Made by a program: the position numbers and the translations under genes. This document shows positions 24,765 through 35,062 of a DNA stretch of 64,000 nucleotides, one piece after another. Below the pieces are notes generated by a model, which was not told where the DNA came from, searched no databases, and saw only the letters and a program-made list of their open reading frames with translations. Numbering within the stretch: the first letter of the stretch is position 1; the number at the start of each line of letters is the position of its first letter. Origin of the DNA: Sphingomonas sp. PAMC26645 (GTDB lineage Bacteria > Pseudomonadota > Alphaproteobacteria > Sphingomonadales > Sphingomonadaceae). Where the stretch lies: positions 1,918,501 through 1,982,500 of the forward strand of contig NZ_CP039249.1 of assembly GCF_004795835.1 (NCBI RefSeq). Reading direction: 5' to 3'.

Positions 24765-26687
24765 CTACTTCGCGTTCTTCACGTATTTGTCGAACCACGC
24801 GATCGACCGCTGGCGGACGTCCGCGGACTGTTCGGGGCCCGTCACGCAGTGGCCGGCGTCGGGATAGATCACCAGGCTGACGGGGACGTTGCGATCCTTC
24901 AGTGCGTGCCACCATTCGATCGACTGGGTCGGCGGCACTTCGATATCGCGCTCGCCGACATAGATGAACGTCGGCGTCCGGGCGGTCTTCGCGTGATAGA
25001 TCGCGGAGACGTCCTCATACGCCTTCATGTCGTCGTACATCGACTTGCCGAAGAACGGCAACAGCCACTGGTCGATGCCGTTGGTGCCGTAATAGCTGAC
25101 CCAGTTCGACAGGCCGGCCCCGGCGACGATGCCCTTGAAGCGGTTGGTCTGCGTATTGGCCCACATCGCCATGAACCCGCCATAGCTGCACCCGGCGAGG
25201 CCGAGGCGCTTGTCGTCGACCGGCGCGACGCGCTCGACCGCATCGACGCCGGCCAGCACGTCGCGCAGGTCGCCACCGCCGAAGTCGCGCTTGTTCGCGG
25301 CGGTGAATGCCTCGCCCTGGCCGTAACTCCCGCGCGGATTGGGCAGGAAGACGTAATAGCCCGCCTTGACCAGCGCAGCGTTGAGCGAGGTCGGATAGAG
25401 ATAGCCGGGGGTCGAGGCCGCCGATGGGCCGCCGTGGACGATCGTGATCATCGGCGCCTTGCCGGTCGGCGCGGTGCCCGAGGTGGGGCGGGGCGCGAGG
25501 AGCCAGCCTTGCACGTCGAAGCCCTCGTTCTTCCAGCTGATGCTCCGTGCGGCGGCGAGCGCGGGCATCGCGTCGTTGTCGTGCGTGATCTGTTTCACGC
25601 CCTGTCCCTGGGGGTTGAGCGGACCTGCGTAGATCGCCGGTGCGTGCTCGAAATCCTGGACCACGGCGGCAGCGATCCGCCCGTCCGCTGAGAACACGGC
25701 GCGGCCATCGCCTGCGCTCGAGCTTGCCGGCTTGGCAAACCCCGGCGCGACCGACTGGCCGGGCGTGAGCGTGCCGAACTGCATCTGGTCGCCGGCCAGC
25801 GTCACGGTGCGCAAGCCACCGCGGGTCCAGGCGATCGTCGTCACCGTGGACTTTGCGCCGGCGGTGACGTTGCGCGGGGTGCCGCCCTCCAGTCCGACCG
25901 TAAAGACGTCGCCGCCGATCGAGCCGAAATCGCTCATCAGGCCGCCGACATAGGCGACGGTGCGGCCATCGGGGGACACGCGCGGTTGGTTGATCTGCGT
26001 CGTCGGCTTGGCGATCGAGCGGACCGCGCCGGTCTGCGCGTCGATCGCGTCGAGCGTCGCCACCCACCAGTTGTTGTCGCCATTGCCGAGCGCGGTCGTC
26101 GCGACGAACCCGCGGCCGTCGGGCGTCCAGTCATATTCATAGACATAGCGACCCGCAGGCGAGAGCGGCGTCACCGTCGTCGTCGCCTTGGCGATATCGA
26201 ACACGGCGAGGCGTTGCTCGTCGCTCTTCTCACCGATCTCGCCGATCATCCGGACGCCGGCCTGCGTCGCGCCCGATTCCTTGGCCGCGCCGAGCGTCAC
26301 CAGCAGCGCGATCCGCTTGCCGTCGGGCGACACGCGCGGGGTCTGGGCGATACCGGCGATGGTCGCGACGGTGCGCGTCGTCCTGGCGTCGGCATAGGTC
26401 AGCCGGACATTGCCCGCCGCGGTGTCGCGGACCAGAAACACCAGGTCACCATTGGGCGCGAAGGTCAGCCCCCCATAGCTGCACGTCGCGCACGGATCGA
26501 TGGTCCGCAGCACGTGCCCGTCGGCGACGTTGCGGAGGGTTATGACACCATGCGCGCCGCTGCTTTCAATGGTCGCGGTGCGATCGCCCGCAGGCGACAG
26601 CGCGAGCCCACCATATTGGTGAAGCGTCTGCGCGGACGCAGGCGCGGCGGTCGCGAGAAGAAGGGCGGCGGTGACGGTAAGACGCAT
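24765..26687 (-). CDS. S9-family prolyl oligopeptidase-like secreted peptidase
   Basis: This 640-residue protein has a signal peptide ending in PASAQ, a beta-propeller-like N-terminal half with repeated SPDGK/SPDGR motifs, and a C-terminal alpha/beta hydrolase. The nucleophile is Ser501 in GCSYGGFMAM; the Asp is in GERDIEVP and the His in DAGHCVTG. Such periplasmic peptidases cleave oligopeptides, often after Ala or Pro, or act as dipeptidyl peptidases. It is the first gene of the probable pair with the metallo-hydrolase. Confidence 0.93.
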   Translation of the reverse strand: MRLTVTAALLLATAAPASAQTLHQYGGLALSPAGDRTATIESSGAHGVITLRNVADGHVLRTIDPCATCSYGGLTFAPNGDLVFLVRDTAAGNVRLTYADARTTRTVATIAGIAQTPRVSPDGKRIALLVTLGAAKESGATQAGVRMIGEIGEKSDEQRLAVFDIAKATTTVTPLSPAGRYVYEYDWTPDGRGFVATTALGNGDNNWWVATLDAIDAQTGAVRSIAKPTTQINQPRVSPDGRTVAYVGGLMSDFGSIGGDVFTVGLEGGTPRNVTAGAKSTVTTIAWTRGGLRTVTLAGDQMQFGTLTPGQSVAPGFAKPASSSAGDGRAVFSADGRIAAAVVQDFEHAPAIYAGPLNPQGQGVKQITHDNDAMPALAAARSISWKNEGFDVQGWLLAPRPTSGTAPTGKAPMITIVHGGPSAASTPGYLYPTSLNAALVKAGYYVFLPNPRGSYGQGEAFTAANKRDFGGGDLRDVLAGVDAVERVAPVDDKRLGLAGCSYGGFMAMWANTQTNRFKGIVAGAGLSNWVSYYGTNGIDQWLLPFFGKSMYDDMKAYEDVSAIYHAKTARTPTFIYVGERDIEVPPTQSIEWWHALKDRNVPVSLVIYPDAGHCVTGPEQSADVRQRSIAWFDKYVKNAK

Positions 26688-26897: not shown

Positions 26898-27437
26898 CTA
26901 GCGCTGACGCTTCACCAAAACCGGTCGTTCGCCGTCGATCAACGCTTTAAACCCGCCGAAACCAGACTGCTTGATGATGACCGCGGTGCCGGGACGCGGT
27001 GCGAGCGTCAAAGGCTCGATTGTCTCCCACGCCGTATTGTTGGCTAGCTGGATTAAGTAACGCGCGTAACTCGACGCCCTTACACCGGTGATCGTCGTCT
27101 TCACCTCGGTAACCCTTGTAAGCCGGTCGGCCTCGCCGCCGCCAAGGGGGTTTTTTGCCGCATCTGCGAGCCCGAACCGCTGCTGTTTACGCTCGACGAC
27201 GGCCGCGCGGTCCAGCGCCAGCAAACTGCCGGACTTGCGCGCGCTCGCGATCTCGCGAGCGGCTGCGTCGAAGCATGACAGCCGAGCAGCATCGGTCGCA
27301 ACCTGCTGGCATTCCGCAAGAACGTCCAATGTTCGCGACGAGGTGCGATCGGGGGCGGCGGTTGCCGGTTCACCGCAGGAGACGCCCGCCAGAGCGAGGA
27401 GTGCAAACGGAACGCAATAGGCACGCAAATCACGCAT
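26898..27437 (-). CDS. Hypothetical exported protein with CxxxxxDxxRLxCFD motif
   Basis: This 179-residue protein has a hydrophobic N-terminus (LRAYCVPFALLALAGVSC) that could be a signal peptide or lipobox. The motif CQQVATDAARLSCFDAAA, also found in many proteobacterial periplasmic proteins and in the VasI-like group, follows, and the C-terminal half is beta-rich (TRVTEVKTTITGV... LIQLANNTAWETIEP). I do not recognise a specific function. It is divergent from the TonB-dependent receptor gene, about 220 bases away. Confidence 0.72.
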   Translation of the reverse strand: MRDLRAYCVPFALLALAGVSCGEPATAAPDRTSSRTLDVLAECQQVATDAARLSCFDAAAREIASARKSGSLLALDRAAVVERKQQRFGLADAAKNPLGGGEADRLTRVTEVKTTITGVRASSYARYLIQLANNTAWETIEPLTLAPRPGTAVIIKQSGFGGFKALIDGERPVLVKRQR

Positions 27438-27659
27438 TGGACTACCTCGAGACGAATAAAGGAAAGAATCTATCGGCCGAGACCGGCGGGGGACACTATG
27501 TTGCGCTTATGTCACGCTAATGTCGCAAACGGAACTCAAAAGGTCCGAATCGACGATATTCATTGCGGTGCGGTAATAGCGATCGATACACCCCTCCCAG
27601 AGCCGGTTCTTTTTCCGGGGGCAAATGCACGGCGATACGCCGGCAACAAGGGGGCTAAT

Positions 27660-30600
27660 ATGACATCTGCTGCTCGTTCACACCTGCTTGCGACCACGCT
27701 GCTCATGGGAGCGGCGACGCTTGCCACGCCAGCGTTAGCGCAAGTCCAGGGTGACAATTCGGGGATTCGCGCTGGGGGCGCGACCGCGACCCAAGCAACC
27801 ACGCCGGGCGCGAATGCCCAGGGCGAAGTCGGCATGACGACGTCCGAAGCGGCGCCGACCACCGAGAACAGCCAGGGCGACATCGTCGTCACCGGCTCGC
27901 TAATCAAGAATCCGGCGCTGATCGCATCGGCGCCAGTCCAGGTCATCGGCCAGGAAGAAATCCAGCTTCGCCAGTCGAACACTGCCGAAGACATCCTGCG
28001 CACCCTTCCAGGTGCCGTGCCGAGCATCGGTTCGGCCGTGAACAACGGCAACGGCGGCGCATCCTACGTCGATCTTCGCGGCCTTGGTTCGTTCCGTAAC
28101 GTCGTGCTGCTCGATGGCAACCGTCTGGCACCATCGGGCTTGGTCGGTCGCGTCGATCTCAACAACATCCCGCTCGCACTTGTCGAGCGTGTCGACACGC
28201 TGACCGGCGGCGCAGCTACCACTTACGGCGCCGACGCAGTTGCAGGCGTCGTCAACTTCATCACCCGCTCGGACTTCTCGGGCCTTGACGCATCGGTCTC
28301 GAACCAGATCACCGAGCGTGGCGACGGTTCGTACTTCCGCGGCGACATCACGATCGGAGCGAACTTCGACGACGGTCGCGGCAACGCGGTATTCTCGGTC
28401 GGCTATCAACAGTCAGACCCCGTCTATCAAGGCGATCGTGACTACTCGATCAACAACGTGAACTCGTTCAGCGGTGCACTCGGCGGTTCGGGTACTTCGG
28501 TCCCCGCAAGCCTTACCGGTACTCGGACGCTGGTGAACGGCATCGCCAACACGGCGCCGCTATATGTCCAGACCGGAACGACGGCAGCAGGCGTTCCCAT
28601 TCTCGCGTTGAACCCAGGCGGCATGGCCAATCGTGGAAACAGCCAGATTGGCTCGAACGGGCAGGCCGTTGCAGCTTATGCGCCGTTCAATTTCAACCCG
28701 TACAACATCTTCCAGACGCCGTTCGAGCGTTTCAACATGTACGGTGCGGCGCACTACGACGTTTCCGACAACATTGAGGTCTATACGCGCGGCCTGTTCT
28801 CGAAGAACACCGTGCAGACCATCGTGGCGCCATCGGGTTCGTTCGGCTCGCAGCTGGTTGTGCCCCTCAGCAATCCGTACCTGCCTGCTGCGCTCCGTAC
28901 TCAGCTCTGCGCTGCCAACATTGCACCCACAACGCTCGGCGTAACTGCAGCTGGTGCTTCGGTTGCCGCTCAAACTACTTATACGCCGCGCTTTACGCCA
29001 ACGGAATGCGCGGCCGCCGCGATCGCGACAAGCCCGACGGATCCAAACTTCCGGACTGCGACGACGACCCTGTCGCGTCGTACTCCAGAAGTCGGTCCGC
29101 GTATCTCAAACTTCCAAACCACGATTTTCGATTATCGAGCCGGCGTTAAGCTGGGCATCACCGAGGGCATCAAGCTGGACGTGTCGGGTGGTTACGGTGA
29201 ATCCGAGAACACGCAGACGCTGCAGGGCTACGTCCTGACGTCGCGCTTGCGCTCGGCAGCGTATGCTACAAACACCACGACCTGCCTGGCTGGCGCTCCC
29301 GGGGGTGCTGCGCTCGGTGCAGGGACGGGTTGCGTTCCCGTTAACCTGTTCGGCGCGGAGGGGACGCTCACACCAGCGCAGGTTCCCTACCTGCTCGGCG
29401 AGAGCACCACGACGATCAAGACATCGCTTGCTCAGGCTCGTGCAGTATTGAACGGCGACTTCGGCTTCGCATCGCCGTTCGCAACCGACTCGGTCGGTTT
29501 CGCGGCCGGTTCCGAATATCGTAAATATCGTGCGTCGCAGCGCTCGGATACGCTGGCTCAAACGGCTGGCGAACTCGGTGGCGCCGGTGGTGCTGCTCCG
29601 AATGTCGATGGCGGGTATGAGGTTGTCGAGGGTTTCGGCGAAATCATTGCGCCGCTCGTCCAGGATAAGCCTTTCTTCCAAAGTTTGACGTTGGAAGTCG
29701 GTGGGCGCTATTCGCATTATAAAGTGCTCGTTCCCACCTCGCCGACCTACAATACGACGACCTACAAGGCTGGTGGTAGCTGGGAGCCAGTTGTCGGCGT
29801 AAAGCTGCGTGGGAACTATCAGCGTGCGGTTCGCGCTCCGAACATCAGCGAACTGTTCTCACCGCTGACCACCGGACTGACCAATCTGGCGACCGATCCA
29901 TGCGCTGGGACCGCGCCTGTTTCGAACGTCGTGTTGCGCAACGTCTGCGTAGCGCAGGGCGCACCGGTCAGCACGATCGGGACGATCCAAGCGGATCCTG
30001 CTGGTCAGCCGAACGTCACGACCGGCGGAAACCTCAACGTCCGGCCGGAAAAGTCCGACTCGTACACGTTTGGTGTTGTTCTCCAGCCTACTCAGCTGAT
30101 CCCGGGTTTCTCGGTCACGGTCGATTACTACAACATCAAGGTGAAGGGCGCGATTTCGAGCCAGACGCCTGACGATGCGATCAACGCCTGCTTTGGTCCT
30201 TCCTTGAGCGCGGCTAGCGCAACTTCAGCTGCCTGCACTGTCATTCGCCGTAATCCTGCGACGGGCAATCTCTACGGCGATAGCGCCACTACTCCCGGCC
30301 TGTTCTCGCCGCTGTCCAACCTTGGCCAGATCAAGACGGACGGTATCGATCTCGGCATCAATTATCGTCGCGATATCGGATTTGCGAAGATGGCATTGTC
30401 GTTCCAAGGCAACTGGACGCATGACTCCAAGTTCCAAGCAACGCCAACCTCGATCAACCGCGAATGCACCGGCTATTATTCGGTCAGCTGCGCATCGATC
30501 CAGCCGGAGTTCTATTGGAATACCCGGGCGACCTTCACGTTTGCCGACAGCGTCGATGTATCGCTCATGTGGCGCCATATCGACGGTGTTAAGCAAGAGC

Positions 30601-30887
30601 CTTACGACGTGACGGACGGTAGCGGTCCTGCATTCGCAGGTACGTTCGGCGGCGACACGGTCAACTTCGGTCGCATCAAGGCGCACGACTATTTCGATCT
30701 GACCACGCGTATCGCCGTTGCAGAGAACTTCGACTTCACCGTCACGGTTCAGAACCTGCTCGACAAGGAGCCGCCGATCGTTGGTTCGACTGTTGGTTCG
30801 ACCTCGTACAACAGCGGCAACACCTATCCGTCGACGTACGACGCGCTGGGCCGTCGCTTTGCGGTCGGGGCACGACTGCACTTCTAG
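27660..30887 (+). CDS. TonB-dependent outer membrane receptor
   Basis: This is 1075 residues with the start at MTSAARSHLLATT, preceded by AAGGGGG. A signal peptide ends at PALAQ. A TonB-box-like DIVVTGSLI is near residue 73, then the plug (VQVIGQEEIQLRQSNTAED...VDLRGLG...VLLDGNRLAP...VERVDTLTGGAATTYGADA), then a 22-strand barrel ending FAVGARLHF. The SLI-KN-P variant and the large size suit the oligosaccharide- or peptide-type receptors of sphingomonads. The extracellular loops include a 4-Cys set. The ligand is unknown. Downstream genes encode modification-type enzymes. Confidence 0.94.
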   Translation: MTSAARSHLLATTLLMGAATLATPALAQVQGDNSGIRAGGATATQATTPGANAQGEVGMTTSEAAPTTENSQGDIVVTGSLIKNPALIASAPVQVIGQEEIQLRQSNTAEDILRTLPGAVPSIGSAVNNGNGGASYVDLRGLGSFRNVVLLDGNRLAPSGLVGRVDLNNIPLALVERVDTLTGGAATTYGADAVAGVVNFITRSDFSGLDASVSNQITERGDGSYFRGDITIGANFDDGRGNAVFSVGYQQSDPVYQGDRDYSINNVNSFSGALGGSGTSVPASLTGTRTLVNGIANTAPLYVQTGTTAAGVPILALNPGGMANRGNSQIGSNGQAVAAYAPFNFNPYNIFQTPFERFNMYGAAHYDVSDNIEVYTRGLFSKNTVQTIVAPSGSFGSQLVVPLSNPYLPAALRTQLCAANIAPTTLGVTAAGASVAAQTTYTPRFTPTECAAAAIATSPTDPNFRTATTTLSRRTPEVGPRISNFQTTIFDYRAGVKLGITEGIKLDVSGGYGESENTQTLQGYVLTSRLRSAAYATNTTTCLAGAPGGAALGAGTGCVPVNLFGAEGTLTPAQVPYLLGESTTTIKTSLAQARAVLNGDFGFASPFATDSVGFAAGSEYRKYRASQRSDTLAQTAGELGGAGGAAPNVDGGYEVVEGFGEIIAPLVQDKPFFQSLTLEVGGRYSHYKVLVPTSPTYNTTTYKAGGSWEPVVGVKLRGNYQRAVRAPNISELFSPLTTGLTNLATDPCAGTAPVSNVVLRNVCVAQGAPVSTIGTIQADPAGQPNVTTGGNLNVRPEKSDSYTFGVVLQPTQLIPGFSVTVDYYNIKVKGAISSQTPDDAINACFGPSLSAASATSAACTVIRRNPATGNLYGDSATTPGLFSPLSNLGQIKTDGIDLGINYRRDIGFAKMALSFQGNWTHDSKFQATPTSINRECTGYYSVSCASIQPEFYWNTRATFTFADSVDVSLMWRHIDGVKQEPYDVTDGSGPAFAGTFGGDTVNFGRIKAHDYFDLTTRIAVAENFDFTVTVQNLLDKEPPIVGSTVGSTSYNSGNTYPSTYDALGRRFAVGARLHF

Positions 30888-30908
30888 GATCTCGACGATC
30901 CGATCTCG

Positions 30909-30938
30909 GGGCGGCTCTTCGGAGTCGCCCTTTTTTTT
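30909..30938 (+). terminator. Intrinsic terminator of the receptor gene
   Basis: A 9-bp stem, gggcggctc paired with gagtcgccc, encloses a ttcg tetraloop and is followed by eight T residues. It lies about 21 bases past the receptor stop codon. Confidence 0.95.
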
Positions 30939-31087
30939 GCCCGTGGGGGGCGTGATTGGGGTCGCAACCTTCGTGCTGCGCGGGGCCGGCTGGTTGGCGC
31001 GAAGGAAGACGCTGCGTCTCAGTTTGACATGACGGGGTACGCAGGGTCCCAGCCATCGGCGGCGTGAAGCTCCGCTCCGCCTCGTGC

Positions 31088-32152
31088 TCAGTCGAGAAGC
31101 GGCGCCGGTGGATCGAGTGCTACGCCGGCCCCGCGGGCGACCGCTTCGGCCCAGACCAGCACCTTGTCGATTTCTTCGGCATGGAATGCCGCACCGTCGA
31201 TCTGTTCGCGCGTGCGGTCGGCAGCACGGTACGCCTTGCCGTCCTTGGCGTTGCGCCCGAACGCCTCGCTTGCCGCCAACGCGTCGATCGTCGCGGGATC
31301 GTCGGCTAAGCCGAACAGGGTACAGAGTGCGGCCAGCGCCGGGCGGGGCGTGGCGAGCAGCGTCTCGCTCTGCAACGATCGCACGCGTCCCGGAAACCGC
31401 GTCACGAGCCCGGCGAACAGGTCGGCCTGTGCGATCCAGCCGACCGCCGCGACCTGCAGGTCGGTCAGCCGGAAATAATCCTCGGGCGCGAATCCAAGGT
31501 CGACCATGCCGTCCGCTAACTGTTTGGCAAGCAGTTCGCGTACCCACAAACGCCCCCACATGCCCTTGCGCGCGATCGACGTAAGGAAGACCCGCAGTGG
31601 CGCGTACAGGAGCACCGCGTGTGCCTCTGGACGAAGCGTCATCATCGTCGGAGCCAGTGCATTGACCACGTTGGACGGCTTCACGATCACCGCCTCGCCC
31701 GGCACGAATGCGCGCGACAGCAGCGTGAGTGCGCTGTCGAGCCGGTCGGCAACCTGTGCCGGGTTGCCGCCGCGGTGGCGCCAGCCGACAAGGTCGTTGA
31801 GAATCAGCGGTTCCTTCAGCGTCGACGCAAGTCCTGCACGGTCGAGGACCTGCGCGAGCAGGGTCGAACAGCAATAGGCCGAGTGGAAGATGAAATGAAC
31901 CGGATCGATCCGCGGGATCATGGCGATCGCCTGCTGGCGGGGGACCACGACCGGCGCTGCCGCAGTCGGCAGGAATTCATCGGTCAGGAACGTCGCAGCA
32001 CTTCGCATGGTGCGGTCCGCGGCGATCAGGTGAACTGCGTCGTGACCGGGATCGTAGCGATGCGCGAGCCATTGCGGGTCGGCGATCCGAGCGGCGGGGA
32101 GCGTGCCGGCGCCTATGTTATTAGTCGAAGGATATGGCGCAGAGATGCTCAT
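31088..32152 (-). CDS. Sulfotransferase-like P-loop protein
   Basis: This predicts 354 residues with the start at MSISAPYPSTNN (an ATG six codons upstream is possible). The block FIFHSAYCCSTLLAQVLDRAG is a good match to the 5'-phosphosulfate-binding loop of sulfotransferases (usually FxFHxxxCxSTLL). It is followed by VIVKPSNVVNAL and a YAPLRVFLTSIARKG segment, which resembles the 3'-phosphate-binding region. The N-terminal part could hold a small cupin-like or unrelated domain. The rest is helical. It lies between the TonB receptor and the two TPR/beta-hydroxylase genes. The acceptor is unknown and catalysis is unproven. Confidence 0.68.
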   Translation of the reverse strand: MSISAPYPSTNNIGAGTLPAARIADPQWLAHRYDPGHDAVHLIAADRTMRSAATFLTDEFLPTAAAPVVVPRQQAIAMIPRIDPVHFIFHSAYCCSTLLAQVLDRAGLASTLKEPLILNDLVGWRHRGGNPAQVADRLDSALTLLSRAFVPGEAVIVKPSNVVNALAPTMMTLRPEAHAVLLYAPLRVFLTSIARKGMWGRLWVRELLAKQLADGMVDLGFAPEDYFRLTDLQVAAVGWIAQADLFAGLVTRFPGRVRSLQSETLLATPRPALAALCTLFGLADDPATIDALAASEAFGRNAKDGKAYRAADRTREQIDGAAFHAEEIDKVLVWAEAVARGAGVALDPPAPLLD

Positions 32153-32280
32153 GCGGCAAAGGGATCGCATATCACGGCGCTGATCGCCACCTGCGAGGCG
32201 CGATCATGCGATTTCCGATTGTGCCTGCGGGCGAATGCGGCATGATACTGCGAAGAACACGATGCCCGGGAGGTTATGCG

Positions 32281-32541
32281 ATGATGAAGCGGATTGCGTT
32301 TGGTCTGGCGACGATTGTCATCGCGACATCCTCTGTAGTCGCGCAGCAACCCGAACCGGTGGCACCGGCGAAGGCGGTTGCCAAGCCGGAGCGGCCGATC
32401 TGCAAACGCTCCGCACCGTCGGGCTCGCTGGTCGAGACCCGGCGCGAATGCCATACGCGTGCCGAATGGAACCGGCTCGCCCAGGAGGGGCGCGCGGCGG
32501 GCCAGGACGTGGTGGATCGCGCGGCGATGGGCGGTCAATAA
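32281..32541 (+). CDS. Small secreted protein with two-cysteine motif
   Basis: This 86-residue protein has a GGGAGG ribosome site 7 bases before MMKRIAFGLATIVIATSS, a signal peptide ending near VVAQ. The mature part of about 65 residues begins Pro/Ala/Lys-rich and contains CKRSAPSGSLVETRRECHTR, a conserved-looking motif with two cysteines 15 residues apart, and ends acidic. I recall this motif from other sphingomonad small proteins, but no function. It overlaps the divergent sulfotransferase-like neighbourhood and ends 18 bases before the TPR/beta-hydroxylase gene, so could be its partner or substrate. Confidence 0.72.
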   Translation: MMKRIAFGLATIVIATSSVVAQQPEPVAPAKAVAKPERPICKRSAPSGSLVETRRECHTRAEWNRLAQEGRAAGQDVVDRAAMGGQ

Positions 32542-32559
32542 GCGCGCTTGGCGATCGGC

Positions 32560-33849
32560 GTGAGCAGTCAACTGGCACAACGGGTCGACGCGCTGCTGCG
32601 TGACGGCGACCAGGCACACCGGTCGGGCGATGCCGCGCGGTCGGGGGCGGCGTACCGGGAGATCCTGGCGATCGCGCCAGATCATCCCGTAGCGCTCAAC
32701 GCGCTGGGGATGGCCGCGCTGGGGCGGGACGACCAGGCCGCCGCCGAGTATTTCGCGCGTGCGGCAAATGCCGATCCCGCCGCCGCGCCGCTGTGGATGA
32801 ACCTGGCGAGTGCGCACCGCGGGTTGGGCGATGCGACGGCGGAGCGGACCGCGCTGGAGCGCGCGCTGGCGCTCGACCAGCGCAACCTGATGGCGAACGT
32901 GCGCCTCGCCGAACTGCACGACCGGACCGGCGATGCGGCGCAGGCGGCGTTCCGCTGGGGCGGGGTGGCGACGATCGTCCAATCGATGGCCGATCGATCG
33001 CCACCGCTCGATCAACTGCTGGCGCGCGCGTCGGACCGGATCGCATTCCACGCGCGTGCGCTGTCGGACGATGTCGATACCGCTATGCAGCCATTGCGGG
33101 CGGGTGTGAGCCCCGCACGGCGTCGCCGGTTCGATGCCTGCGTCGATGCGATGCTGGGGCGTCGGACGATCTACGCACCCGCGCCGCACGGGATGCATTT
33201 CCCGTTCCTTCCGGCCGACGAGTTCTTCGCGCGCGACCATTTCGCATGGTTGACCGAATTCGAGGCGGCGACACCCGTCATCCTCGCCGAACTGAAGGCG
33301 CTGCTCGCCGAACCGTCGGCGGGCTTCACGCCTTATGTGGCGATGCCGCTCGGGACGCCGGCCAATCTGTGGAGTCCGCTCGATCGCTCGGACCAGTGGA
33401 GCGCACGCTATCTGTGGCGCTACGGTGTCCGCGACGACGCGGTCTGCGCTCGGTGTCCGCAGACCGCGGCGATCCTCGATGCGTTGCCGCTGGCGGATAT
33501 TCCGGGCCGCGCGCCGACCGCATTCTTCTCGGTCCTCAAACCGGGCACGCATTTGCCGCCGCATACGGGGGTCAGCAACATCCGCTCGGTCGTGCACCTG
33601 CCGCTGATCGTGCCCGACAAATGCGGCTTCCGCGTCGGCGGCGAGACCCGCGAATGGCGCGTCGGCGAGGCGTTCGTGTTCGACGATACGATCGAGCACG
33701 AGGCCTGGAACGACAGCGACACGATCCGGGCCGTCCTGATCGTCGATGTCTGGAACCCGCATCTGACGCCTGACGAGACGACCATGCTGCGCCGCCTGTT
33801 CGGGGCGCTCGGCAACAAGCTCGGCAATAGCGGAGACGTTGCCGACTGA
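32560..33849 (+). CDS. TPR-domain aspartyl/asparaginyl beta-hydroxylase, copy 1
   Basis: This predicts 429 residues from a GTG start (a TTG 4 codons earlier is possible; neither has a good ribosome site). The N-terminal half has tetratricopeptide repeats (AYREILAIAPDHPVALNALGMA, YFARAANADPAAAPLWMNLA). The C-terminal part is the AspH fold: LPPHTGVSN supplies Fe ligand His335 and FDDTIEHEAWN supplies His380, 45 residues later, close to human AspH spacing. Arg in TIRAVL is the 2-oxoglutarate anchor. The substrate is unknown. It converges on a paralog. Confidence 0.88.
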   Translation: MSSQLAQRVDALLRDGDQAHRSGDAARSGAAYREILAIAPDHPVALNALGMAALGRDDQAAAEYFARAANADPAAAPLWMNLASAHRGLGDATAERTALERALALDQRNLMANVRLAELHDRTGDAAQAAFRWGGVATIVQSMADRSPPLDQLLARASDRIAFHARALSDDVDTAMQPLRAGVSPARRRRFDACVDAMLGRRTIYAPAPHGMHFPFLPADEFFARDHFAWLTEFEAATPVILAELKALLAEPSAGFTPYVAMPLGTPANLWSPLDRSDQWSARYLWRYGVRDDAVCARCPQTAAILDALPLADIPGRAPTAFFSVLKPGTHLPPHTGVSNIRSVVHLPLIVPDKCGFRVGGETREWRVGEAFVFDDTIEHEAWNDSDTIRAVLIVDVWNPHLTPDETTMLRRLFGALGNKLGNSGDVAD

Positions 33850-33883
33850 AGCCGGTGCCGACGGGCTGCCCGCAGCGTTCTGC

Positions 33884-35062
33884 TCAGCCCGTGTCGATCG
33901 CCACGCCCTGATAGGTGTCGATAGCCTCGAAGATGTCGGTCAACGCGGCGCGTTCGTCGGCGGTCAGTTCGGGTCGCCAGACCTCGAACAGCAGGACGAT
34001 CCGGGTTTCCGTGCCACGGTTCCACGCCTCGTGCTCGAACGAATCGTCGAAGATGAGCATCTCGCCGGCCCGCCACACGCGCGTTTCCGCCCCGACCCGC
34101 AGTGCGCATCCTTCGGGTGCGATCAGCGGCAGATGACAGATCAGCCGCGTGTTGAGCATCCCGTGATGCGGCCGAATGTGCGTGCCGGGCTTCAGCAGCG
34201 AAAAGATCGCCATCGGCGAGCGGCCCGCGATCAGCGGTATCGGTGCCTTCTCCAGCGCGGCCATGGTATGCGGACAGGAGGATGCGTTGGGTTCCACGCG
34301 CTCGCCACCGCGCCACAACTGGAACGCGCTCCAGCTTGGATCGTCGAGCAACGGGTTGGCCGGCGCTGGCCGGTCTGGCGTCGACTGGACATAGGGCGCA
34401 AAGCCCTTCTCGGCCGCGACGACGCTTTGCAGTTCGGCACGCATGTCTGCGGTCGCGGCCTCCATGGCTGCAACCCACGCGAACTCGTCGCGCTCGAAGA
34501 ACGCACGCTGCGCAAGTCCGGCAAAATAGAACATCGACGGGTGTTGCAGATACAGTTCACGCCGTCCGAGCAGCAGGTCGAGCGCGTACCGCGTACGCCC
34601 CCCCGATACGCCAGCGGCAAGACCCGTCCCCGCCAGCGCATCGCCGAGATGTGCGGCAAACCGTTTCGCGCAATCCGCCAGGAACGCTTCACCCGCCTTC
34701 AGCATTGGCACCAGCACGGGCGCTATCGTGGCATCCGGCAGCGTGGCGACGTTCAGTGCAGTACGATAAAAGGATTGCGCCGCGCGCTCGTCGCCGCGTC
34801 GGACCTTCAGCGCGGCCATCGTCAACAGCGCAGCCAGGTGGCGTGGTTCTGCTGCCAGGAAATGCACCAGCGCGGTTTCCGCCTCGTCGTCGCGGCCAAG
34901 CGACTGTGCGGCTTGTGCGATCAGGAACCAAGGCGCGGGCATGCCCGGTGCCCCGTCGCGTAGAAGGGACAGCATTTCATAGGCGCGTGCCGCGTTACCG
35001 TTGCGGAGCGCAGCCATCCCGTCGCGCGCGAGAGTTTCTGCTTGAGGCCGAGTCAGTTGCAT
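33884..35062 (-). CDS. TPR-domain aspartyl/asparaginyl beta-hydroxylase, copy 2
   Basis: This 392-residue paralog of the convergent neighbour has N-terminal TPR units (GMAALRNGNAARAYEMLSLL, LGRDDEAETALVHFLAAEPRH) and an AspH C-terminal half. Fe ligands are His299 in RPHHGMLN and His344 in FDDSFEHEAWN, also 45 apart; Arg follows in ETRIVL. The two proteins share KPGTH, HLPLI.P and W..GE..(I/V)FDD blocks. Both keep the Asp-less two-histidine site of AspH. Intracellular location is likely since no signal peptide is seen. Confidence 0.88.
   Translation of the reverse strand: MQLTRPQAETLARDGMAALRNGNAARAYEMLSLLRDGAPGMPAPWFLIAQAAQSLGRDDEAETALVHFLAAEPRHLAALLTMAALKVRRGDERAAQSFYRTALNVATLPDATIAPVLVPMLKAGEAFLADCAKRFAAHLGDALAGTGLAAGVSGGRTRYALDLLLGRRELYLQHPSMFYFAGLAQRAFFERDEFAWVAAMEAATADMRAELQSVVAAEKGFAPYVQSTPDRPAPANPLLDDPSWSAFQLWRGGERVEPNASSCPHTMAALEKAPIPLIAGRSPMAIFSLLKPGTHIRPHHGMLNTRLICHLPLIAPEGCALRVGAETRVWRAGEMLIFDDSFEHEAWNRGTETRIVLLFEVWRPELTADERAALTDIFEAIDTYQGVAIDTG

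Follow-up and report, generated by a model that had tools for sequence, protein, structure and literature searches.

We analyzed a 64,000-nucleotide stretch of the Sphingomonas sp. PAMC26645 genome (contig NZ_CP039249.1, positions 1,918,501 to 1,982,500 of the forward strand; hereafter the window) for the genes that accompany a TonB-dependent receptor located near its middle. These encode a sulfotransferase-like protein (SULF), a small exported protein with two cysteines (SMALL), two proteins in which TPR repeats are joined to an AspH-type 2-oxoglutarate (2OG) oxygenase domain (ASPH1 and ASPH2), and a further exported protein (UP179). The parts of the locus belong to known kinds; no description of the locus itself was found in the literature searched, in which coverage of subscription papers was limited. 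The features are listed below in window coordinates.

26898-27437, minus strand: UP179, exported protein, divergent from the receptor; weak VasI-like N-terminal match only
27657-30887, plus strand: TonB-dependent receptor, 1076 aa (1075 from the next ATG); Pfam Plug (4e-21) and barrel (2e-28)
27870-27914, plus strand: TonB-box segment SQGDIVVTGSLIKNP of the receptor, residues 72-86; phmmer alignment to SPDTLVVTANRFEQP of BtuB, the vitamin B12 transporter
31088-32170, minus strand: SULF, 360 aa, predicted TPST-fold sulfotransferase-like protein (structure model); family without a name
31862-31885, minus strand: P-loop-like motif HSAYCCST of SULF, residues 96-103, aligned to PRSGTT of TPR-sulfotransferases
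32281-32541, plus strand: SMALL, 86-aa exported protein; N-terminus signal-peptide-like by hydropathy only
32401-32469, plus strand: conserved motif CKRSAPSGSLVETRRECHTRAEW of SMALL, C-x15-C-x5-W, from an alignment of 22 members
32548-33849, plus strand: ASPH1, TPR + PF05118 (Pfam, 8e-44), receptor-linked clade in the tree
33884-35062, minus strand: ASPH2, TPR + PF05118 (Pfam, 3e-45), second clade in the tree, elsewhere often solitary

Open reading frames and Pfam matches placed all five genes where an earlier note on this DNA had put them, its receptor length of 1075 residues being the count from the next ATG. UP179 is a member of the locus that was missing from that gene list. The receptor has Plug and beta-barrel domains above the Pfam cut-off and a TonB box before the plug, as a TonB-dependent receptor should. 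ASPH1 starts 6 bases past the end of SMALL on the same strand, and the two genes are probably co-transcribed. SULF is divergent from SMALL-ASPH1 and convergent with the receptor, and ASPH1 and ASPH2 are convergent with each other. Judged by hydropathy only, the receptor, SMALL and UP179 carry export signals and the AspH proteins and SULF do not; the latter should therefore act in the cytosol.

A search for SULF in 149 genomes of the family, including that of the window, gave matches in 55 genomes. There were 65 matches, one of them the window's own. For 40 of the other 64, about 20 kb of surrounding sequence (less where the contig ended) was taken as the locus, and partner genes were detected there with profiles built from the loci. 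The 24 left out were G037 and 23 weaker matches; the sample thus consists of the stronger SULF matches, and linkage may be lower among distant relatives. In these one-per-species loci a receptor was present within 5 kb of SULF in 30 of 40 cases, representing 23 of 31 genera, and AspH, SMALL and UP179 were found within the same distance in 21, 22 and 17 loci, respectively. With 67 plug matches in the 4.28 Mb of the window's genome, a receptor within 5 kb is expected, as an estimate, for about one in five random genes. Compared with this value, 30 of 40 SULF loci indicates co-occurrence above chance. Receptor, TPR-AspH and SMALL were found together in 15 of the 40 loci (12 of 31 genera), so that the synteny check proposed in the earlier note turned out positive: the gene types co-occur across genera.

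A larger set was assembled from the 40 loci, 50 named loci and the window, minus four duplicates (L084, L086, L106 and L111), which gave 87 loci with near relatives still among them; 78 had full 5-kb flanks. Within 5 kb of SULF these 78 contained a receptor in 71 cases (in two of them only BtuB-like), AspH in 58, SMALL in 58 and UP179 in 52, and 51 had receptor, SMALL and AspH together. Some 2OG oxygenase was present within this distance in 68 of the 78, in seven of these being of the 2OG-FeII_Oxy_4 type. Of the 87 loci, 69 have a receptor of the main type, five have one of a second type and two a BtuB-like one, and 11 lack a receptor.

Many of the relatives carry the module between clpB and xseA/purD (gene names assigned by eye), and such a shared position could be inherited. 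This could be explained by the genes standing together by history, as an old chromosomal block, and not by function. We consider this explanation very improbable, since in the window's own genus the same set is located away from clpB, and since different receptors elsewhere have their own groupings of SMALL, UP179, AspH and further TPR enzymes.

The sequence of SULF gave no match in Pfam, NCBIfam or the PDB, the last searched up to E 5. Among 32 relatives of SULF seven Pfam families were matched, each by one member only and with a best E of 0.0097, and these matches were taken as chance. The confident structure model has the fold of the superfamily of sulfotransferases that use 3′-phosphoadenosine-5′-phosphosulfate (PAPS), and fold comparison placed it nearest to tyrosylprotein sulfotransferases (TPSTs), with glycan sulfotransferases ranking lower. 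A P-loop-like motif and the Glu are retained in SULF, and the motif, in loosened form, occurs in all 79 SULF relatives. Of the Arg/Ser pair that contacts the 3′-phosphate, Ser198 is present and Ala190 occupies the Arg position. The model supports the description of SULF as a predicted TPST-fold sulfotransferase-like protein; its likeness to TPST-1 and TPST-2 is one of fold only, SULF being without a sequence match and without the usual 3′-phosphate Arg. The label sulfotransferase-like, given in the earlier note, thus agrees with the predicted structure, but no family match stands behind it. SULF and SMALL are both families without a model in the libraries searched. For one SMALL relative (P0222, one of 120 listed) a PF28279 assignment is precomputed, which had no match in the Pfam copy used, and a newer Pfam may hold a model for SMALL.

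ASPH1 and ASPH2 share 41% identity over 387 columns and score 149.7 and 154.5 bits with PF05118 (cut-off 22.6), and HxG...H iron-site motifs are present in both. As in human AspH, PGTH..PH.G and FDD...HEAW are kept in the two proteins; the best E values against AspH entries were 6e-31 for ASPH1 (human-type entries) and 8e-33 for ASPH2. In human AspH, whose substrates are EGF-like domains, a TPR region likewise precedes this oxygenase domain, and its active-site motifs are matched in both window proteins; these differ in being bacterial and in having no export signal.

The lipid hydroxylases LpxO and OlsC have the same PF05118-type domain, and the AspH domains of the window match the models of OlsC (E 8e-29 and 5e-28) and LpxO (E 2e-14 and 4e-15). 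The substrates of the hydroxylases and SULF could accordingly be lipids of the membrane or glycans of the cell surface in the vicinity of the receptor. However, the scores, 98-100 bits with OlsC and 54-56 bits with LpxO, are far below the NCBIfam equivalog cut-offs of 450 and 500, and neither protein is a member of these families. The window proteins differ from them by the TPR fusion, which together with the similarity to human AspH fits a protein substrate better, and the top folds for SULF are TPSTs, with glycan sulfotransferases lower. An action on lipids or glycans is therefore distinctly unlikely in our judgement.

A tree was built of 79 TPR-AspH proteins. It excludes 14 loci that were duplicates or nearly so, genes of the SULF locus shorter than 340 or longer than 560 aa, and the weak match L215. 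It separates an ASPH1 from an ASPH2 clade with support 100/99. The ASPH1 clade has 55 rows, three of them solitary, and is mostly receptor- or SULF-linked; the ASPH2 clade has 24 rows, of which 11 are solitary. The clade split and the receptor linkage point to ASPH1 as the enzyme of the module and to ASPH2 as a recruited relative. Four solitary TPR-AspH genes of the ASPH2 clade (L209, L211, L222 and L223) lie in housekeeping surroundings, and in the last three a UvrD/PcrA-like helicase reading frame, recognized by eye, adjoins the gene.

In the 22 aligned members of the SMALL family both Cys, the Gly and the Trp of the motif are invariant and the Ser after the Gly is nearly so. Two members are present in the window's genome, and the profile matched in at least 101 of the 149 family genomes and in eight of 190 genomes across the class. 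Forty SMALL copies away from the SULF locus were taken from the upper part of the matches listed. A receptor was found within 5 kb of 19 of these copies, with UP179 at 12 of the 19. Varying sets of TPR-2OG-FeII_Oxy_5, TPR-Sulfotransfer_3 and TPR-AspH accompany 12 of the 19, and seven (L168, L169, L173, L180, L184, L196 and L202) have no detected enzyme. SMALL occurs also at loci without a detected receptor. In L191, L198, L200, L220 and L226 the receptor is surrounded by a dense set of TPR-fused modifiers of the AspH, 2OG-FeII_Oxy_5 and Sulfotransfer_3 kinds. SMALL homologues in L159, L185, L187 and L193 are in housekeeping surroundings, those in L185, L187 and L193 near a reading frame which by eye is ribosomal S4-like or SpoU-type methyltransferase-like.

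This distribution bears on the proposal of the earlier note that the locus makes, modifies and imports a small peptide, i.e. that the enzymes produce or modify a diffusible ligand, a peptide or a siderophore-like compound, which is taken back by the receptor, as in methanobactin or lasso-peptide loci. Receptor, sulfotransferase and small reading frame do recall methanobactin (mbn) operons, which have a TonB transporter, a small reading frame and in some cases a sulfotransferase according to a published account (PMC3621798). In a published gene list for Pontixanthobacter/Allopontixanthobacter, lasso-peptide B2, an ABC transporter, a sulfotransferase, an aspartyl beta-hydroxylase, a second sulfotransferase, PqqD and an asparagine-synthase-like gene have neighbouring cluster numbers, which means that such enzymes can occur in peptide-making clusters of this order (PMC10040529). 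The window's genome, by contrast, gave no match to PF05114 (MbnB) in a search that found the family in two of 14 control genomes, and a methanobactin operon was rejected on this ground; AspH is present instead, and the N-terminus of SMALL is of the Sec type, so that SMALL is seemingly Sec-exported. Neither exporter or B1/B2 genes nor other peptide-maturation genes were noticed among the conserved neighbours (by eye; no models run). Moreover, SMALL is present at the seven receptors without a detected enzyme and at the receptor-less loci. We therefore did not retain the proposal as a biosynthetic system, and a ligand of this kind appears unlikely, though worth bearing in mind.

The analysis establishes the linkage, the domains, the catalytic motifs, the predicted fold of SULF and, as described below, a similarity of a SMALL segment to the TonB-box region; the activity of the enzymes, their substrate, the order of the steps and an effect on uptake are inferred. 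The reading that we put forward tentatively, at somewhat less than an even chance, is a receptor-centred module in which an exported protein of the module is hydroxylated and sulfonated in the cytosol and SMALL acts at the receptor. Before its export this protein, either the receptor or SMALL, would be modified by AspH and SULF: the unfolded chain would be held by the TPR part, AspH would hydroxylate Asp or Asn, and SULF would sulfonate a hydroxyl, perhaps the one newly made by AspH. SMALL would work in the periplasm on the TonB-box side of the receptor. At other receptors the corresponding places are filled by different TPR-fused modifiers, namely TPR-2OG-FeII_Oxy_5 and TPR-Sulfotransfer_3, and the presence of TPR-fused AspH, 2OG oxygenase and sulfotransferase at receptors suggests modification of a protein chain in the cytosol prior to export. 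SULF is accompanied by one or another 2OG oxygenase, which makes hydroxylation followed by sulfonation a natural guess. A comparable bacterial case is the tyrosine sulfation of RaxX by RaxST, in which a sulfotransferase serves one small exported protein; SULF and SMALL are likened to this pair by description, not by sequence, and to our knowledge RaxX/RaxST is without a receptor or hydroxylase module.

The earlier note named both the receptor and SMALL as possible targets of modification, and two observations point to different ones. Five receptor-linked regions outside the SULF locus were selected through AspH, and SMALL was found in none of them; the receptor is therefore the constant partner there, which points to it as substrate. 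Receptor-linked AspH loci that were chosen by SMALL do contain it (L174, L191, L198 and L200). On the other hand, two genomes of one genus (G001 and G095) keep SULF, AspH and SMALL together and have the receptor, 59-70% identical, elsewhere with UP179, which points to SMALL. UP179 stays with the receptor at such split loci (L290 and L291). A conserved Asn after the TonB box was considered as a target of AspH; by eye it is present also in receptors of loci without AspH and is uninformative.

Several results weigh against the receptor-centred module. Outside the SULF locus no receptor was detected within about 6 kb of 15 of 20 TPR-AspH genes. A receptor was thus near at least five of 20, compared with none of 20 random control windows; five is a lower bound, because none in the controls against about one in five expected indicates that the profiles miss other receptor types. 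Of the 14 receptor-less genes entering the tree, 11 belong to the ASPH2 clade. The earlier note had regarded hydroxylases unlinked to receptors in most relatives as damaging, and this applies to the 15 genes but less so to the ASPH1 clade, most of which is receptor- or SULF-linked. Seven full-flank SULF loci have no receptor within 5 kb (L055, L056 and L065-L069), L066 and L069 are without any detected partner, and L070 and L072 were counted as receptor-linked only through a BtuB-like receptor, which is of another type. In the arrangement of G001 and G095 the partner of the enzymes is SMALL and not the receptor. As to catalysis, the first AspH motif in the form PG....H.G is present in 35 of 68 relatives and the second motif in 66 of 68, and the Arg position of SULF is Ala in 62 of 70 readable rows of relatives and Arg in none. 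Since the usual 3′-phosphate Arg is absent, the use of PAPS by SULF is not assured. Finally, the motif of SMALL contains no conserved Asp or Asn in the 22 aligned members. Hydroxylation and sulfation of the receptor or SMALL are candidate modifications only.

The segment of SMALL between the two Cys resembles the TonB-box region of the receptor. Scored along about 1000 receptor positions, it had its best score on the TonB-box site in 20 of 35 receptor clusters, and this site ranked among the best 1% of positions in 86% of the clusters, compared with 12% for shuffled segments. Thirty of the 67 plug-match receptors of the window's genome were examined and the TonB-box motif was readable in 16; V-T-G-S-L was found in the window's receptor only and V-T-G-S-R in four. 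With the four duplicate loci removed beforehand, 72 pairs with receptors were obtained from 129 SMALL rows. In seven rows the TonB box of the nearest receptor was unreadable and in two there was no motif, and these were left out; L038 and L104 were dropped later, the nearest receptor being a second one, and L098, likely mis-paired in the same way, was kept in the co-variation, segment-scoring and tree analyses.

The residue after G-S matched between SMALL and receptor above permutation expectation. For Arg at the last G-S-x position the two-by-two table of SMALL against receptor reads 11 and 4 in the first row and 0 and 47 in the second, with p values, without tree control, of 3e-6, 5e-4 and 0.07 at 75, 60 and 50% clustering. 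This Arg/not-Arg split was chosen after the data had been seen; the Leu/not-Leu split, tried first, gave p 3e-4 unclustered and 0.006, 0.13 and 1.0 at the same clustering levels. A six-residue permutation score gave p 3e-4 (75% clustering) and 0.006 (50%), with L045 and L048 read at the wrong Cys. On the receptor tree, for which these two rows were read at the right Cys, SMALL and receptor each change four times, two of these on shared branches, one of which comes from a doubtful pairing. As about one or two shared changes are enough to account for the pattern on the tree, the co-variation could reflect common descent of lineages, and once the receptor tree is considered it is weak and was discarded as strong evidence.

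At three loci, between ASPH2 and ASPH1, the SMALL motif forms the C-terminal end of a TonB_C (PF03544) protein (L080:7549-8184, L087:8018-8605 and L093:7913-8497). The AF2 model of such a fusion was poor (pLDDT 61.5, pTM 0.42) and not good enough to reveal whether SMALL docks onto TonB_C; it suggests a hairpin with the two Cys facing each other and G-S-L at the turn, followed by a helix.

We treat the resemblance as a lead, which supplies a concrete binding hypothesis. Taken further, SMALL could be a soluble periplasmic mimic of the TonB-box region and, as such, a competitor for or regulator of TonB or some other partner of the receptor tail, its state being set by AspH and TPST-like enzymes through hydroxylation and sulfation. 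We hold this to be doubtful, and equally so its structural form, a disulfide-clamped hairpin presenting G-S-[L/R] at the turn to match V-T-G-[S/T]-[L/R]-I of the receptor. The TonB-box scoring, the three fusions and the Arg-Arg pairing argue for a mimic; against it are the count of only two shared changes on the tree, the presence of SMALL away from receptors, and a Pro in the window's SMALL where the TonB-box strand would pair.

Hydroxylation of the AspH type and sulfation of the TPST type are known mainly from the eukaryotic secretory pathway. If the receptor-centred module is true, bacteria would apply both to their own uptake machinery, and the locus hints at chemical modification of parts of uptake systems by bacteria. 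SULF and SMALL are model-less families with clear genetic partners, which makes their function accessible to gene deletion and mass spectrometry in laboratory sphingomonads.

Two further observations concern neighbouring and divergent genes. Divergent SULF relatives in L065, L067, L068 and L121 (a short contig) are paired with 2OG-FeII_Oxy_4, with no receptor detected within 5 kb; such pairs are possibly a two-enzyme hydroxylation-sulfonation unit. In the window, an exported S9 peptidase is encoded upstream of UP179 (24765-26687). It was considered as a lasso-peptide isopeptidase and matches S9 and acylaminoacyl peptidases instead; as the 40 loci of relatives contain no match to it, we placed it outside the module.

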